Below are positions 3,569 through 33,195 of a stretch of DNA of 34,047 bases, one piece after another (within the stretch, counting starts at the first letter, position 1; each line of letters starts with the position of its first letter). The notes under the pieces are model-generated. The model did not search any database and was not told the origin of the DNA. It worked only from the letters and a program-made list of their open reading frames with translations. The position numbers were made by a program, and so were the translations under genes. The DNA comes from a virus, in the IMG/VR virus record IMGVR_UViG_3300041403_000072, positions 1-34,047 of that record; one strand, written 5' to 3'.

Positions 3569-4105
3569 CTAGCCTTTGAGAAATAATTTTAGGTTCCGAT
3601 TAAGGTCTTCCATAGAACGAAGGGAAATATAGGGCAGGGTGCCTGCCTGCGTTCGCTCCGTCATGCCGTTACCGTGGGTCGTACCCGGAACCACTTCTTC
3701 ACAGTTCGCCCAGAACTGCCCCTTACTGATAAACCCCATCAGGTCGCAGCAGGCCGCTCGATCCCTAACCATCAGAACTGACGTAAAGACGTAGAAGGTA
3801 GTCTCCTGCCCCTTCTGGCTCATGGGAACCTGCGCCGCGTAGTCGCTCTTAGGGAGTACGGTGCGGTTCTTCGTCTTAACGTCAAAGGTTAGGCCCTGAA
3901 CGCTAAAGTCCGCGTTGTAGCTGTCCTTCCCGATGTAGTCGAAGGGTATCTCATGATCCGTTAGCCACCTTCCGAACACCGCCTCCCCGATATAGCCCAC
4001 ATACTGCCCAGCCCCGCCCTTGAGAAGCGTCGTCCCGTTAAAGGCTGCGTTCGAGCAGTTCGCTAGAGCCCATTTGTGGGCGTTGTCAGGGATCGGGTAG
4101 CGCAT
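3569..4105 (-). CDS. Probable PD-(D/E)XK nuclease-fold protein
   Basis: This 178-residue protein shows a PD-(D/E)XK-like signature: Glu41 in YIGEAVFGRWL, Asp66 in YNADF, and DVK at 75-77 (Asp75, Lys77), with a strand between as expected. Families with this arrangement include Holliday-junction resolvases and small phage or restriction endonucleases. The length suits a single-domain nuclease. It lies directly upstream of the SF2 helicase and downstream of the noncoding region 4106-4484. AAGGAAACGT precedes the ATG. It could process recombination intermediates or degrade host DNA; the assignment rests on motif pattern alone. Confidence 0.65.
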   Translation of the reverse strand: MRYPIPDNAHKWALANCSNAAFNGTTLLKGGAGQYVGYIGEAVFGRWLTDHEIPFDYIGKDSYNADFSVQGLTFDVKTKNRTVLPKSDYAAQVPMSQKGQETTFYVFTSVLMVRDRAACCDLMGFISKGQFWANCEEVVPGTTHGNGMTERTQAGTLPYISLRSMEDLNRNLKLFLKG

Positions 4106-4484
4106 ACGTTTCCTTAGGCAATAGTGGTCTTTTGAGGACTATTGGTGCCCCCACGCTAGAACTGCCTGCAATTTCCCGTTAGATCAGCGTCATCAGCAAC
4201 GATTTACCTGCGGCTCGTAACACCGCCCCCACGCTTTCGCGGCACCTGTACGCTGTTTATTCCCGTCCTCAAAGGTCCTGATCTAACATCTCGCTTTGCT
4301 GCTGGCTGCGCGATGCGACAGCACATCTTGTGGGGAGCAGTCCCAGTCGGCGCAAGATATGGACGAGATTTGGGGATTGAACGCCAGATATAGTGGCGTT
4401 ATAGTAGTCACCGCGTCGGGTGATCGATTCCAATCCTTCTCTCGTCGGCTCTTTAGGGGTTGCTAGCCCCACCGACGCATTCAA
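4106..4484 (-). ncRNA. Gene-free region rich in inverted repeats: candidate structured leader, RNA or replication region
   Basis: This is by far the longest stretch without a convincing gene. On the minus strand it would be transcribed from the promoter at 4485-4511 toward the nuclease and helicase genes. Stems seen directly: CGTCGG/CCGACG (4443-4448 and 4472-4477) enclosing GGGG/CCCC; TCACC/GGTGA (4408-4423); AACGCCA/TGGCGTT with a 7-base loop (4380-4400); ATCTTG/CAAGAT (4325-4358); the long-range GTTAGATCAG/CTGATCTAAC (4178-4187 and 4278-4287); and CAATAGT/ACTATTG (4119-4144) just before the nuclease gene. GCCCCCACGCT occurs twice (4147 and 4225). I do not recognise a known RNA family. A weak TTG-start frame (4269-4484) exists but begins inside the proposed -10. 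Confidence 0.45.
4178..4287. repeat. 10-bp inverted repeat with arms 100 bases apart
   Basis: GTTAGATCAG at 4178-4187 is the exact reverse complement of CTGATCTAAC at 4278-4287. In RNA it could close a domain of about 110 bases; in DNA it could be a protein-binding pair. One copy of the 11-bp direct repeat GCCCCCACGCT lies between the arms, at 4225-4235. Confidence 0.6.
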
Positions 4485-4511
4485 TTTATACCCCTTGAGA
4501 CGCCCTGTAAA
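4485..4511 (-). promoter_or_regulatory. Candidate leftward promoter of the divergent pair
   Basis: On the minus strand the -10 TATAAA (4490-4485) lies downstream of TTTACA (4511-4506) with a 15-base spacer, which is short; CTTTAC at 16 bases is an alternative -35. The -10 is embedded in AGGGGTATAA, the same 10 bases that contain the -10 of the opposing promoter. It would drive the structured leader and the nuclease-helicase genes. Confidence 0.4.
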
Positions 4512-4516
4512 GCGAT

Positions 4517-4545
4517 TTGACGGGTTTTAGCCCGAGGGGTATAAC
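4517..4545 (+). promoter_or_regulatory. Strong sigma70 promoter on the plus strand
   Basis: TTGACG (4517-4522) and TATAAC (4540-4545) are separated by exactly 17 bases, each one mismatch from consensus. It is the best promoter I find in the window and the only one that points against the genes. Transcription should start about seven bases downstream, near A4551, exactly at the base of the first hairpin of the RNA at 4551-4611. AGGGGTATAA around the -10 is the inverted copy of 4486-4495, which suggests shared control with the divergent promoter. Confidence 0.75.
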
Positions 4546-4550
4546 GTACT

Positions 4551-4611
4551 AGCTGGTGGCTCTCCCTCCTCTCTCCTGCCAGCTTTGGGCCCCTTCGGGG
4601 GCCCTTTTTTT
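4551..4611 (+). ncRNA. Putative anti-Shine-Dalgarno small RNA
   Basis: About 61 bases lie between a near-consensus promoter and an intrinsic terminator. The first hairpin pairs AGCTGG (4551-4556) with CCAGCT (4579-4584) and extends by two G-U pairs and a G-C pair, leaving the loop CTCTCCCTCCTCTCTC (4560-4575). This loop is pure pyrimidine and contains CCUCC, the complement of GGAGG, like the 3' tail of 16S rRNA. The second hairpin is the terminator. No reading frame fits within the transcript. The known concept is a trans-acting RNA with an anti-SD loop, as in the cuckoo family of proteobacterial RNAs. Loop segments match SD regions at 8824-8832 and 1227-1235 over nine bases, and at the starts of the genes at 5406 and 33866 over eight. 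The target choice is inference, because purine-rich SDs match easily. Confidence 0.7.
4587..4611 (+). terminator. Intrinsic terminator with UUCG loop
   Basis: GGGCCCC (4587-4593), loop TTCG, GGGGCCC (4598-4604) and seven T residues (4605-4611) form a textbook rho-independent terminator on the plus strand. On the minus strand no U-tract follows. It ends the small RNA and stops antisense transcription from entering the HNH gene at 4631-5035. Confidence 0.92.
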
Positions 4612-4630
4612 GGCTGTACGCTCTGCGTAC

Positions 4631-5035
4631 TTAATTCCACGAAAGGAAGTCGATGGCCTCGCCCGTCCCCCACTCCTTCCACTGTTCCCGGTAGTGCTTG
4701 GCGATCTCTTTCTTTTCAGCGACCCGCACGCGATATATCTCGTTTTTCTTTTCCATAAGCCGTTCCATGTGCCCTTCCCCTAAGTAGGAGGCGAGCCATG
4801 AGATGAAGTCCAGAGGGTTCTCGGTGAAATATCGGTGATGGTAGTAGCAAAGGGAGACGGCGTTATCTAAAGACCAGCGGGTGCTGGCGTTCCTACGGCC
4901 TATGATGTGGGCACAATGTAGGCCCTGATCAGGACCGGGGAACTCCTTGCCGCAGAACTCGCAAGTGAAGTTAGCCTTAGCCCTTACACACAGTGAAAAG
5001 TAATGGTCCGCTGCATCGCGTTTAATCCCTGCCAT
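4631..5035 (-). CDS. HNH-type zinc endonuclease, NinG-like
   Basis: This 134-residue protein has a zinc pair Cys25-x2-Cys28 (counted from the ATG at 5035), an HCAH motif about 15 residues later, a conserved Asn in SLDNAVSLC, and a final Cys-Tyr-Tyr-His-His, which together form an HNH/beta-beta-alpha-metal nuclease core. The C-terminal half is helical and charged. The layout recalls phage NinG/Rap-type recombination endonucleases, which cut branched DNA, and the NinB-like gene nearby supports that reading. A homing or packaging HNH cannot be excluded. I chose the second ATG because GAGGA sits too close to the first one at 5041. The stop adjoins the palindrome GTACGC-TCT-GCGTAC (4617-4631). Confidence 0.8.
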   Translation of the reverse strand: MAGIKRDAADHYFSLCVRAKANFTCEFCGKEFPGPDQGLHCAHIIGRRNASTRWSLDNAVSLCYYHHRYFTENPLDFISWLASYLGEGHMERLMEKKNEIYRVRVAEKKEIAKHYREQWKEWGTGEAIDFLSWN

Positions 5036-5201
5036 CGTCATTCCTCGGCACTGCGGTTAAAGCTGGTCGGTCGTCTAATAGCTGGCGGAACATCTTACGC
5101 GCTCTAGCTAAAAGGACAGGATCGCCAGAAATGATGGTCAGGGACATAGCCACCTCCCCATCCTGATCGGGGTCGTCCTCCTGCCATTCGATCCTATTCA
5201 T
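5022..5201 (-). CDS. Small acidic hypothetical protein
   Basis: The gap between two larger genes holds an intact 59-residue frame: an acidic N-terminus (QEDDPDQDGE) followed by a helical segment around LLARARKMFRQLL. Its ATG overlaps the upstream stop by eight bases and its end overlaps the HNH gene, the same coupling seen across this genome. CAGGATGGGGAGG before an internal ATG (Met19) could drive a shorter form. No family is recognised. Confidence 0.6.
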   Translation of the reverse strand: MNRIEWQEDDPDQDGEVAMSLTIISGDPVLLARARKMFRQLLDDRPALTAVPRNDDGRD

Positions 5202-6602: not shown

Positions 6603-7040
6603 CTAAGCCTGACTCTTTCGTATCTGCATGAACTCAGAATCGGCTGGGGTATTGAGTTGCAGGCCAAGCTCCAAGCACCACTGGTAGACCTGCTCCATAA
6701 AGTGGTACATCTCGCCCTTTCGTAGCTTAGATGTCTGCTTCAGTTGGTTTTCGAGGATGATCTTACCAGCTTTCTTAGATTCCGTGCCTAAGAACCTGAA
6801 CTTGCATATATCCTTCATTTCCTCCTCTGTTAGCTCCGGTCTAGCCGGTTTGAAGTGGTTTACCATCTGCCTTATCCAAACATGAAATAAGGCGTTTTGC
6901 GTAAGAGAGCGGGGGTTCTGGTAGGGCTGAAAGGTAATCGAGACTGGCGTAGACCAGTCCCAATTAGCCTTAAGGTGATCCCCTAAGTGTTCTAGCCGCT
7001 CCTCTATCTGCTGCGGTCTATCAATCTTCCAGAAGTCCAC
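6603..7040 (-). CDS. NinB/Orf-like recombination mediator
   Basis: This 145-residue protein begins at a GTG that shares one base with the upstream stop and follows GGAGGAGGAG. The segment RSLTQNALFHVW matches the R-S-x-x-Q-N-x-x-F/L-W core of phage NinB/Orf proteins, which bind single-stranded DNA and help load annealing proteins. The C-terminal helical part (GEMYHFMEQVYQWCLELGL) also fits that family's dimerisation region. It lies in the same run as the exonuclease, annealing protein and SSB-like protein. The length equals that of lambda Orf. The assignment rests on one good motif plus context. Confidence 0.75.
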   Translation of the reverse strand: MDFWKIDRPQQIEERLEHLGDHLKANWDWSTPVSITFQPYQNPRSLTQNALFHVWIRQMVNHFKPARPELTEEEMKDICKFRFLGTESKKAGKIILENQLKQTSKLRKGEMYHFMEQVYQWCLELGLQLNTPADSEFMQIRKSQA

Positions 7041-7213
7041 TACTCCTCCTCCTGATCCGCTTGCAGCTCGCCTTTCGTAAGGACTTGAAGCTGGTACTGT
7101 CGCGTCATCGGCGGACGATCTCCCCAGCGACCAATAGCATGGGGCCAGATATCCAAGGCCCGTGCTAAGCCCTTCTTTCCGCCGAAGTAGTTAATCGCTT
7201 CCAGCGTCGTCAT
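7040..7213 (-). CDS. Small Cro/YdaS-like DNA-binding protein
   Basis: From the second ATG (7213, preceded by GGAGG) the protein has 57 residues: TTLEAINYFGGKKGLARALDIWPHAIGRW. The pattern A-I-x-x-F-G-G-x-x-x-L-A-x-A-L-x-I...A-I-x-x-W is typical of Cro- or YdaS-type helix-turn-helix repressors. The tail QADQEEE is acidic. It overlaps the neighbouring HTH gene by 23 bases, giving a pair of small regulators inside the recombination operon. It may control the divergent promoters at 4485-4545 or the promoter region before 8816; that is inference. Confidence 0.75.
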   Translation of the reverse strand: MTTLEAINYFGGKKGLARALDIWPHAIGRWGDRPPMTRQYQLQVLTKGELQADQEEE

Positions 7214-7412
7214 GAACGCCTCCATAGGATAGAAACTCGTCTACAGTTAAGCCGAAGAAGTCCGCCAGCTTCTGGCAATAGGACGCCTGTAGGTCCGTGT
7301 AATTCCGCCAGCGGCTAATGGTCTGAACGTGTACCCCGAGAGCCCGCGCAATATCCACATTGGCTATCACGCGGTCACTCTGGAGGGCTCGTAGGCTAGC
7401 CCCGACGTTCAT
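7191..7412 (-). CDS. Cro/CI-family helix-turn-helix regulator
   Basis: This 73-residue protein contains a classical HTH at about residues 18-37 (VDIARALGVHVQTISRWRN), followed by a helix ending in FFGLTVDEFL, as in XRE-family proteins. It lacks a C-terminal oligomerisation or cleavage domain, so it is Cro-like rather than a full CI repressor. The ATG overlaps the upstream stop as TAATG. With the next gene it forms a twin-regulator unit. With no integrase in the genome, a role in timing lytic expression is more likely than lysogeny control. Confidence 0.85.
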   Translation of the reverse strand: MNVGASLRALQSDRVIANVDIARALGVHVQTISRWRNYTDLQASYCQKLADFFGLTVDEFLSYGGVHDDAGSD

Positions 7413-31768: not shown

Positions 31769-32605
31769 TTAGGCCCCCTGCTTTACCCGTGGGTCTATCG
31801 CTTGGGCCCGCTTTCTTGCCCGCTCTGTTGCTTTCTGCTTTGAGCGTTTAAGCTCCTCCGCTTTAGGTAAACAGTGCTGCAAGTTTGAAAGGGTGTAGAA
31901 CACTACGCTTGAACGCTCCCAGTTCTTAGCCTTTGGGATGATAGGCGTTACCCCGTGGGGAATGCTTACCCCATCAACGACAACTAAAGCGCCGTGCGAT
32001 TGCGCCAGTGCCAGCTTGAACTGAGGCATTACGAAATAGCCTCCGTCAATATTTTTCTTAGTTATTAAGACGTTACTGTACACGCCGCCATAGTTAGCCG
32101 CGTCAACATGGTAGCCGATAGCAAAGTTTTTATTGACGTTGACGGTTGTAAATGGGGTGCCTGTCTTTTTCCAATCATCGTGGATACCGCCTACAAACTT
32201 CTGAAAGTTAGCAGCAACTTCGGGGAAGCTGTTCTGGTATACGCCCCATAGGTACTTCCCCACCTTTGAAAGGCCAGCGAACACCTCTGGCTGCGCTCTG
32301 GTTTGCGCGGAAAACCTGCAATAGTCCTCCCGAACCGCGATTCTCGGCAATGCGCCATAAACCGCTGACATTTGGTTTACCCCAAGGGTGCGTGACGCCT
32401 TTGAAACTTTGGCTTTCGCGGTACAGGCATTCAGAATTGCGAGCGTATCTTCTGGCAGCACCCTATAGGCACAGACCAGCCTGCCGTTATGGTAGATATC
32501 GGCAGGTTCGTCAATTAAGGTGTCGTAATGGCTTGGCGGGGGCGTTTTGCCCTTCCAGTGCTTGTAGTCGAACCCGTAATCTACCGCCTCTATACGCCTT
32601 ACCAC
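31769..32605 (-). CDS. TET/JBP-like Fe(II)/2-oxoglutarate dioxygenase, putative DNA base hydroxylase
   Basis: This 278-residue protein shows the core of the TET/JBP family: H-x-D in GYHVDAANYGG (His166, Asp168, with Asn171), then GGYFVMPQFKLAL, then DGVSIPHGVTPI with the second metal His217, and ERSSVVFY with Arg231 to bind 2-oxoglutarate. The HGVTP...R-x-S-x-V-F-Y ending parallels the HATTP...RISLVFY ending of TET enzymes. Known members oxidise the methyl group of thymine (JBP) or 5-methylcytosine (TET). No cytosine methyltransferase or glycosyltransferase is visible here. The GTG start overlaps the end of the ParB-like gene, with AAAGGA upstream; terminase follows. The basic C-terminal tail may bind DNA. 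The substrate is inference. Confidence 0.85.
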   Translation of the reverse strand: MVRRIEAVDYGFDYKHWKGKTPPPSHYDTLIDEPADIYHNGRLVCAYRVLPEDTLAILNACTAKAKVSKASRTLGVNQMSAVYGALPRIAVREDYCRFSAQTRAQPEVFAGLSKVGKYLWGVYQNSFPEVAANFQKFVGGIHDDWKKTGTPFTTVNVNKNFAIGYHVDAANYGGVYSNVLITKKNIDGGYFVMPQFKLALAQSHGALVVVDGVSIPHGVTPIIPKAKNWERSSVVFYTLSNLQHCLPKAEELKRSKQKATERARKRAQAIDPRVKQGA

Positions 32606-33195
32606 TTGCTGGCTTCCTTTAGCACTAAATCAAAAACCAGCGTCGAATAGTCCTCTGCCCCGGTATGCGCCAGCCCTGCGTCCAGCTTTTCGACAATCAC
32701 CTCTAATTCTTCTTGGCTGTAGGCAAGGCGCAGAATCTTTGTGTCCCCGTTAAGAAAGTTCTCCAGCTTTTCTTCTGGCGTTAGCCCAAGCGGTACGTCT
32801 TCAGGGTCTACTAGCCGTAAAACCTCGTCGCTTAACCCAAGTAGGGTAGTGTCAAAGTCAAGCTCTGCTAGCCTCTCTACTTCCCCTTTAAGGGTATCGA
32901 TATCCCAGCCTGCATTCATGGCAAGGGAGTTGTCAGCGATGACGTAAGCGCGTTTCTGGGCCTCTGACAGTCCGGTGAGGGTAATCGTAGGGACTTCTTC
33001 CATGCCGAGAGCGTTCGCGGCTTCGAGCCTACCATGCCCAGCAATGATGCCGCCTGCTTCGTCGATCAGGATTGGATTCGTAAACCCGAACTCTTTAATG
33101 GATTCTACGATCTGACCGACTTGTTCCTTACTATGCGTGCGGCTGTTGTTCTCGTACGGCGTAAGGTCTACCGCCCTGCGGTATTCGATCTGCAT
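32599..33195 (-). CDS. Stand-alone ParB/Srx-fold protein, partner of the dioxygenase
   Basis: This 198-residue protein has an N-terminal ParB-type nuclease-fold domain: NNSRTHSKEQ (16-25), FTNPILID and IIAGHGRLEAAN with GHGR at 53-56, then VIADN. This version is usually fused to phage DNA methyltransferases; here no methylase domain follows, and the C-terminal ~90 residues are acidic and helical. It is not a partition ParB: there is no HTH or ParA. Overlap with the TET/JBP-like gene suggests a joint pathway of DNA modification, with this protein providing DNA binding or a nucleotide-dependent step. A hairpin at 33200-33220 may mask its SD. Confidence 0.9.
   Translation of the reverse strand: MQIEYRRAVDLTPYENNSRTHSKEQVGQIVESIKEFGFTNPILIDEAGGIIAGHGRLEAANALGMEEVPTITLTGLSEAQKRAYVIADNSLAMNAGWDIDTLKGEVERLAELDFDTTLLGLSDEVLRLVDPEDVPLGLTPEEKLENFLNGDTKILRLAYSQEELEVIVEKLDAGLAHTGAEDYSTLVFDLVLKEASKW

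Follow-up and report, generated by a model that had tools for sequence, protein, structure and literature searches.

A conserved two-part RNA locus, comprising a pseudoknotted leader and a predicted antisense hairpin unit, at the head of replication genes in environmental phages

What does a phage gain from half a kilobase of DNA that encodes no protein and lies directly upstream of its replication genes? The window (the whole stretch of DNA that was analysed) is a 34,047-base IMG/VR virus record with terminase, portal, tail, lysis, recombination and replication genes, all of them carried on the minus strand. An earlier sequence-only reading had pointed to about 380 gene-free bases (4106-4484), rich in repeats, and had proposed a structured leader, an independent RNA, a replication origin or a degraded gene. 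The stretch is indeed free of genes but was undersized: the interval from 4106 to 4630 (525 nt), between two minus-strand genes, is free, and the conserved locus itself extends over about 4106-4611. Comparison with homologues indicates that 4106-4630 holds a conserved two-part RNA locus, made up of a large structured element, M1, and a hairpin unit, D1 (Table 1).

Table 1. Features of the locus and its flanks, in window coordinates
Feature	Position	Strand	Remarks
178-aa gene, PD-(D/E)XK-like motif	3569-4105	-	motif read by eye; without Pfam match
Shine-Dalgarno AAGGAAA and ATG of first operon gene	4115-4109; 4105-4103	-	sequence
M1, pseudoknotted leader RNA, about 245 nt	about 4117-4359	-	60 unique homologues, pair counts, model search
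M1 helix A	4131-4139/4265-4273	-	5 of 9 pairs change on both sides; 90% of cells paired
M1 helix F	4144-4149/4241-4246	-	mean 7.55 bp vs 5.4 with partners swapped between sequences
M1 helix B	4178-4187/4278-4287	-	10 of 10 pairs change on both sides
M1 short helix i/a	4194-4197/4252-4255	-	all cells paired, one pair varies; weak support
M1 hairpin c-ii	4305-4308/4319-4322	-	loop 4310-4313 pairs with 4291-4294 (helix H)
M1 hairpin	4331-4334/4342-4345	-	loop 4336-4340 pairs with 4299-4303; compensatory change
Candidate plus promoter, TTGAAC/17-nt spacer/TATAGT	4377-4405 (4377-4382; 4400-4405)	+	predicted start about 4412-4413
D1 hairpin unit, 66 bp	4413-4478	both transcripts	outer stem 4413-4419/4472-4478
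7-nt loop UUGCUAG of D1 inner hairpin	4459-4465	+ sense	
Candidate minus promoter, TTTACA/17-nt spacer/TAAATT	4483-4511 (4511-4506; 4488-4483)	-	predicted start about 4478
Predicted antisense/small RNA, D1 plus 3' domain	4413-4611	+	fold and alignment, two types of relatives
Possible second plus promoter, TTGACG/17-nt spacer/TATAAC	4517-4522; 4540-4545	+	by eye, window-type relatives; unscored against chance
CU-rich hairpin loop in 3' domain	about 4560-4577	+	
Intrinsic terminator, GGGCCCC-UUCG-GGGGCCC and seven T	4587-4611	+	loop UUCG or UCCG in window-type relatives
HNH/NinG-like gene	4631-5041	-	flanks gap

Neither Pfam nor the codon-position test revealed a coding ORF within the gap, and no tRNA or tmRNA was found there. 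The open frame at 4269-4484 was considered as a gene and rejected: in the two closest homologues, substitutions at the three codon positions number 9, 5, 4 and 12, 7, 5, with no third-position excess, and frameshifts and stops break it in more distant ones, so that a check for protein-type conservation over this interval found none. The inverted and direct repeats named earlier are all present in the sequence. The 11-bp direct repeat is not conserved, and the AACGCCA/TGGCGTT pair (4380-4386/4394-4400) is kept in the closest relatives only and lies across the -35/-10 spacer of a candidate promoter. In single-sequence folding, the description of the region as structure-rich finds little backing (z = -1.7 and -1.8 relative to shuffles for the two strands); it is the covariation among homologues that bears it out. 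As both strands fold only slightly better than shuffles, repeat counts alone prove little and, in our judgement, the case for function rests on nucleotide conservation and covariation.

Relatives were gathered from IMG/VR by helicase-based scans first and pattern-based scans next. One of them, L003, matches the gap at 92% identity over 503 nt, compared with 82% for the neighbouring HNH protein and 74% for the helicase. One degenerate pattern for the M1 core matched 73 viral contigs, or about 80 when earlier patterns are counted, and 60 unique M1 homologues were obtained from phage contigs. The first M1 covariance model matched all 56 of 56 newly fetched loci at E <= 7e-7, these E-values being rough. 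Two M1 patterns were run on about 85,000 sampled genomes of bacteria and archaea; one matched nothing and the other a single sequence, a 7.8-kb contig that is binned to an Anaerolineales MAG and is possibly a misbinned phage. Rfam 15 gave nothing for the window at the gathering cut-off, nothing for homologues at E<=1 and nothing over M1 at E<=10, in line with the earlier remark that no RNA family is recognised. No match to M1 was found in the literature, of which subscription journals were mostly outside coverage; BLAST of the element against cultured phages and plasmids returned short matches only, mostly in the terminator region, and an RNA-model search found M1 absent from five cultured helicase relatives (PS-1, Baldr, YA3, Vibrio 1.148.O and HS5). 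On these sequence comparisons, we regard M1 as a large structured RNA, previously uncatalogued, that is present in about 80 environmental virus sequences.

The strongest element of M1 is helix B, the very 10-bp pair with a 90-base gap that had been noticed by inspection. A scan of all column pairs in 15 sequences ranked it top with 9 covarying pairs, and across the 60 unique homologues it is present with many different sequences (in three or so, the script chose a shorter or other register); it is a true helix, kept by compensatory change. The covariation check that had been proposed earlier was run and found such change. For the six tested helices (35 pairs) in 42 diverse sequences, 87.1% of cells are paired compared to 69.6% after shuffling, 26 of the 35 pairs change on both sides, and the covariation value is 0.453 compared to 0.157 after shuffling; none of 500 shuffles reached the observed value. 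Shuffling takes no account of relatedness, whereas a second control, in which partners are slid by 1-3 columns and covariation is about 0.10 at most, does not; the tested structure was derived in part from the same sequences. Hairpin c-ii and helix H have 91% and 94% of cells paired, with both-side changes in 7 of 8 pairs. Of the six, support is lowest for the G hairpin, in which 74% of cells are paired. The hairpin at 4331-4345, together with its loop pairing, was recognised in window-like and L097/L098-like members. Helix B crosses both A and F, and helix H does the same with hairpin c-ii, which gives M1 at least two pseudoknots. Its conserved unpaired cores include GGGACAAACAGCGU and GUUGCUGAU.

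The strand of M1 is given by the exceptions to Watson-Crick pairing. Read on the plus strand, the non-Watson-Crick cells of helix B in the 60 homologues are 15 A.C and 0 G.U, with several lineages contributing; on the minus strand the A.C cells turn into G.U, which places the M1 RNA there. One helix H pair, read on the minus strand, is U.G in 27 sequences and C-G in 12. The first 15 sequences gave a mixed signal, helix A favouring the plus strand at one position, whereas the larger set is clearly minus. Sigma-70-like plus promoters are not enriched to the left of M1, and this result, together with the A.C/G.U asymmetry, rules out M1 as a plus-strand noncoding RNA upstream of the plus small RNA. 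The 3' edge of M1 is directly followed by a Shine-Dalgarno site and a start codon in three loci, those of the window, L005 and L011. We consider that the sequence evidence establishes both the structure of M1 and its minus-strand origin, and of the roles first proposed, that of structured leader or riboregulator is strongly supported for M1.

D1 begins with GCGTCGG and ends with its complement. The outer stem so formed shows compensatory change in 6 of 7 pairs and is 97.1% paired in 45 sequences, and the inner stems differ among members yet remain paired. Nine different 7-nt loops were seen and 26 of 29 fit YUNNNAR, a form that would suit kissing. Promoter-like sequences face each other across D1 in nearly all members in which it was located, mostly with 17-nt spacers and at a short distance from the D1 ends. 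Their mean score is 8.2/12 on both sides compared to 5.9 for background, using a sigma-70-type consensus and 53 D1 units located by script, a few of which, including the window's own (its true position being established separately), are misplaced. The face-to-face layout is conserved across the family. The minus promoter is predicted to transcribe D1, M1 and the genes, and the plus promoter an antisense RNA sharing D1; if both work, both transcripts begin with D1, where they are complementary over about 66-80 nt. D1 and both facing promoters are also present in three relatives in which M1 is not detectable (L002, L013 and L094). There, different sequence occupies the place of M1 and may itself be structured; a segment common to L013 and L094 has paired changes, as judged by eye.

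The suggestion of an independent noncoding RNA survives, at the level of sequence, as a separate plus-strand RNA consisting of D1 and a terminated 3' domain. This domain, with its CU-rich loop and intrinsic terminator, is an addition of window-type phages; many other members have a T-rich run directly after D1. A search for targets of the CU-rich loop gave scattered Shine-Dalgarno-like matches only. The possible second plus promoter would yield an RNA of ~60 nt (4551-4611) with the CU-rich loop, a layout like that of the MmgR-type alphaproteobacterial small RNAs, in which a CU-rich unpaired stretch is followed by a strong terminator. The plus-strand RNA is not a member of that family (18.1 bits for RF00519, gathering cut-off 41).

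In most loci, M1 is followed by a DEAD helicase gene, either directly or after one or more small genes; in the window, the operon continues with the PD-(D/E)XK-like nuclease, the DEAD helicase and a primase-like gene. In L069-type phages, M1 instead heads an operon for annealase, exonuclease and SSB, with the helicase-primase operon running divergently on its other flank. Because M1 heads a recombination operon there and not the helicase, gene-specific translational control is unlikely, and the varied downstream contexts tie M1 to the replication/recombination control region as opposed to any one gene. The slot between M1 and the helicase is a hotspot for accessory genes (3569-4105 in the window; L085, L097-L100, L123, L124, L137 and L142). 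It holds PD-(D/E)XK nucleases, of which that of L123 matches PF24579, a Mom-family DNA modification gene in L124 (PF25680, E 1.9e-30), with L142 looking alike, and a Dcm-like methylase in L137. Elsewhere in the window, two small overlapping HTH regulator genes lie at 7040-7412, one of them a P22 Cro match (PF14549, E 2.4e-17), and a queuine tRNA-ribosyltransferase-like gene (phrog_6059) adjoins a ParB-like nuclease gene at 31769-33195.

Taking these observations together, we favour an antisense-controlled pseudoknotted leader of a replication operon, akin to plasmid copy-control RNAs, to which we would assign a probability of roughly 55%. For the regulatory mechanism of M1 and D1, we infer transcription, start sites, kissing and direction of effect as follows. 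The minus transcript would start near 4478, cross D1 and then M1, and the multiply pseudoknotted leader would end beside the Shine-Dalgarno site of the first operon gene. The plus antisense RNA would start near 4413 and have the 66 bp of D1 in common with the minus transcript. Each RNA would present the D1 hairpin, with loops that are fully complementary; the loops would kiss, the RNAs would then pair over D1, and folding or use of the leader would be altered. A rise in antisense RNA would thereby hold down replication functions, at the level of expression (or priming), in the way that plasmids control their copy number. Three observations count against this reading: D1 and its promoters occur apart from M1 in L002, L013 and L094, M1 heads a recombination operon in L069-type phages, and complementarity between D1 and M1 does not exceed that of swapped partners. 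We judge antisense control of the leader to be the most likely arrangement and leave its output, whether translation, priming or antitermination, unspecified.

More radical is the idea that M1 belongs to a new class of large functional RNA (a primer RNA, a ribozyme or an RNA acting on the polymerase) that replaces a protein initiator and starts DNA replication across a widely distributed set of environmental phages, with the D1 antisense RNA as its copy-number clock; we think this unlikely, though worth stating. A little less probable is an RNA-primed origin, in which the minus transcript (D1 and M1) is a pre-primer like RNA II of ColE1, cut to prime, and the plus RNA is an inhibitor like RNA I. 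Such an origin would agree with the predicted complementarity of the antisense RNA to the 5' end of the leader and with the position of the locus, which heads replication genes whatever the flanking gene. The RepL initiator gene occupies the same slot, directly or nearly directly before the helicase, in two cultured helicase relatives, and the window proteins that were scanned, several of which have no assignment, included no recognisable initiator; failure to recognise an initiator does not mean that none exists. Against it, M1 ends at a ribosome-binding site, as a leader would, and the scan of GC skew over the window shows no inflection at the locus. We keep the replication origin proposed in the sequence-only reading as a less likely alternative.

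Further down, we place an antitermination leader, in which M1 would act on RNA polymerase as the put RNA of HK022 does so that a long early operon is read through. There is precedent for such an RNA in phage early operons (PMC9378689), and M1 sits at the operon start regardless of the next gene, the flipped L069-type included. It is, however, larger than put and pseudoknotted, no operon terminator has a demonstrated need for it, and the conserved antisense layout would be left without explanation. We have still less confidence in a riboswitch or autoregulatory leader, in which M1 would bind either a metabolite or a protein of the phage and thereby control whether the first gene is translated. 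The conserved unpaired cores and the M1 3' edge at the ribosome-binding site are what one would expect of it, but the next gene changes (nuclease, helicase, annealase, Mom-like or methylase), which is ill-suited to a gene-specific switch.

Decidedly improbable is the view that D1 serves chiefly as a DNA operator, to be bound by a phage repressor where two promoters face each other, its hairpin being incidental. The same sequence box does occur at both D1 start sites, and window-type D1 has a third copy in between. Two HTH proteins, one of them Cro-like, are encoded in the window and could use D1 as an operator; an operator repeated at both starts could also account for part of the pairing of the D1 ends. 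The inner hairpin, however, persists with stems that differ widely among members and with loops that are mostly 7-nt YUNNNAR, which would not be expected of an operator. That the region is a degraded gene, or that its inverted repeats arose by chance and have no function, can be dismissed: folding energy alone is near that of shuffles, but third-position bias is absent, homologues carry frameshifts, and compensatory change far above the controls refutes such a reading.

A conserved, multiply pseudoknotted RNA that is new to Rfam 15 and, in the two pattern scans, nearly absent from the sampled bacterial and archaeal genomes heads replication genes in these phages, and the natural compensatory changes provide ready-made variants of the M1/D1 structure. 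If antisense control of the leader is correct, phages use RNA copy control of the plasmid kind, and incompatibility groups would be defined by the sequences of the D1 loops.

To our knowledge, a pseudoknotted leader with a facing antisense RNA is otherwise known mainly from plasmids. The closest layout is that of RepZ (RepA) and Inc/RNAI in IncI-alpha, IncB and IncL/M plasmids, where, as in the phage locus, a pseudoknotted leader lies upstream of a replication gene and a short antisense RNA carries a hairpin complementary to the 5' part of the leader, with kissing-type loops. In I-complex plasmids, the antisense RNA forms a kissing contact with a stem-loop of the leader, and repZ translation is switched by a pseudoknot (PMC10724649 and works cited in it). 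The phage locus likewise has its pseudoknotted leader right before the Shine-Dalgarno site with a helicase operon downstream. Unlike in IncI-alpha, M1 has several pseudoknots, separate from the antisense target D1; the D1 target loop does not join a pseudoknot, D1-M1 complementarity being not above the level of swapped partners. The setting also differs, in that this is a phage locus and the operon contains a helicase and other genes with no known initiator.

The complementary loops of ColE1 are 7 nt long, a length that most D1 loops share. ColE1 also resembles the locus in having a long structured transcript, RNA II, with an opposed antisense RNA. Besides making a kissing contact with RNA II, RNA I is complementary to the 5' end of that transcript (PMC11012335). 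The predicted plus RNA is likewise complementary to the 5' region of the structured transcript. In contrast to ColE1, M1 runs into a Shine-Dalgarno site and a gene, the RNAs would overlap over a single hairpin unit, and priming is hypothetical. Given this, and the background level of D1-M1 complementarity, we do not file the locus as a member of the plasmid systems.

Among phages, lambda replication uses the O protein at iterons, and we know of no M1-like structured leader in its pR/pO region. The resemblance lies in the facing promoters at a phage replication region (pR/pO, with oop), as here (PMC3985674). At about 245 nt with crossing helices, M1 also differs from put RNA. Put RNA is short, with simple stem-loops. 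The structured put RNA of HK022 likewise stands where early phage operons begin (PMC9378689), and the position of M1 at the head of an operon fits this type. The ornate RNAs GOLLD, ROOL and OLE were, like M1, found by comparative genomics and are large and highly structured (PMC12286853). M1, which has no Rfam match, looks by comparison like an mRNA leader of about 245 nt. GOLLD, ROOL and OLE are larger, stand-alone RNAs.
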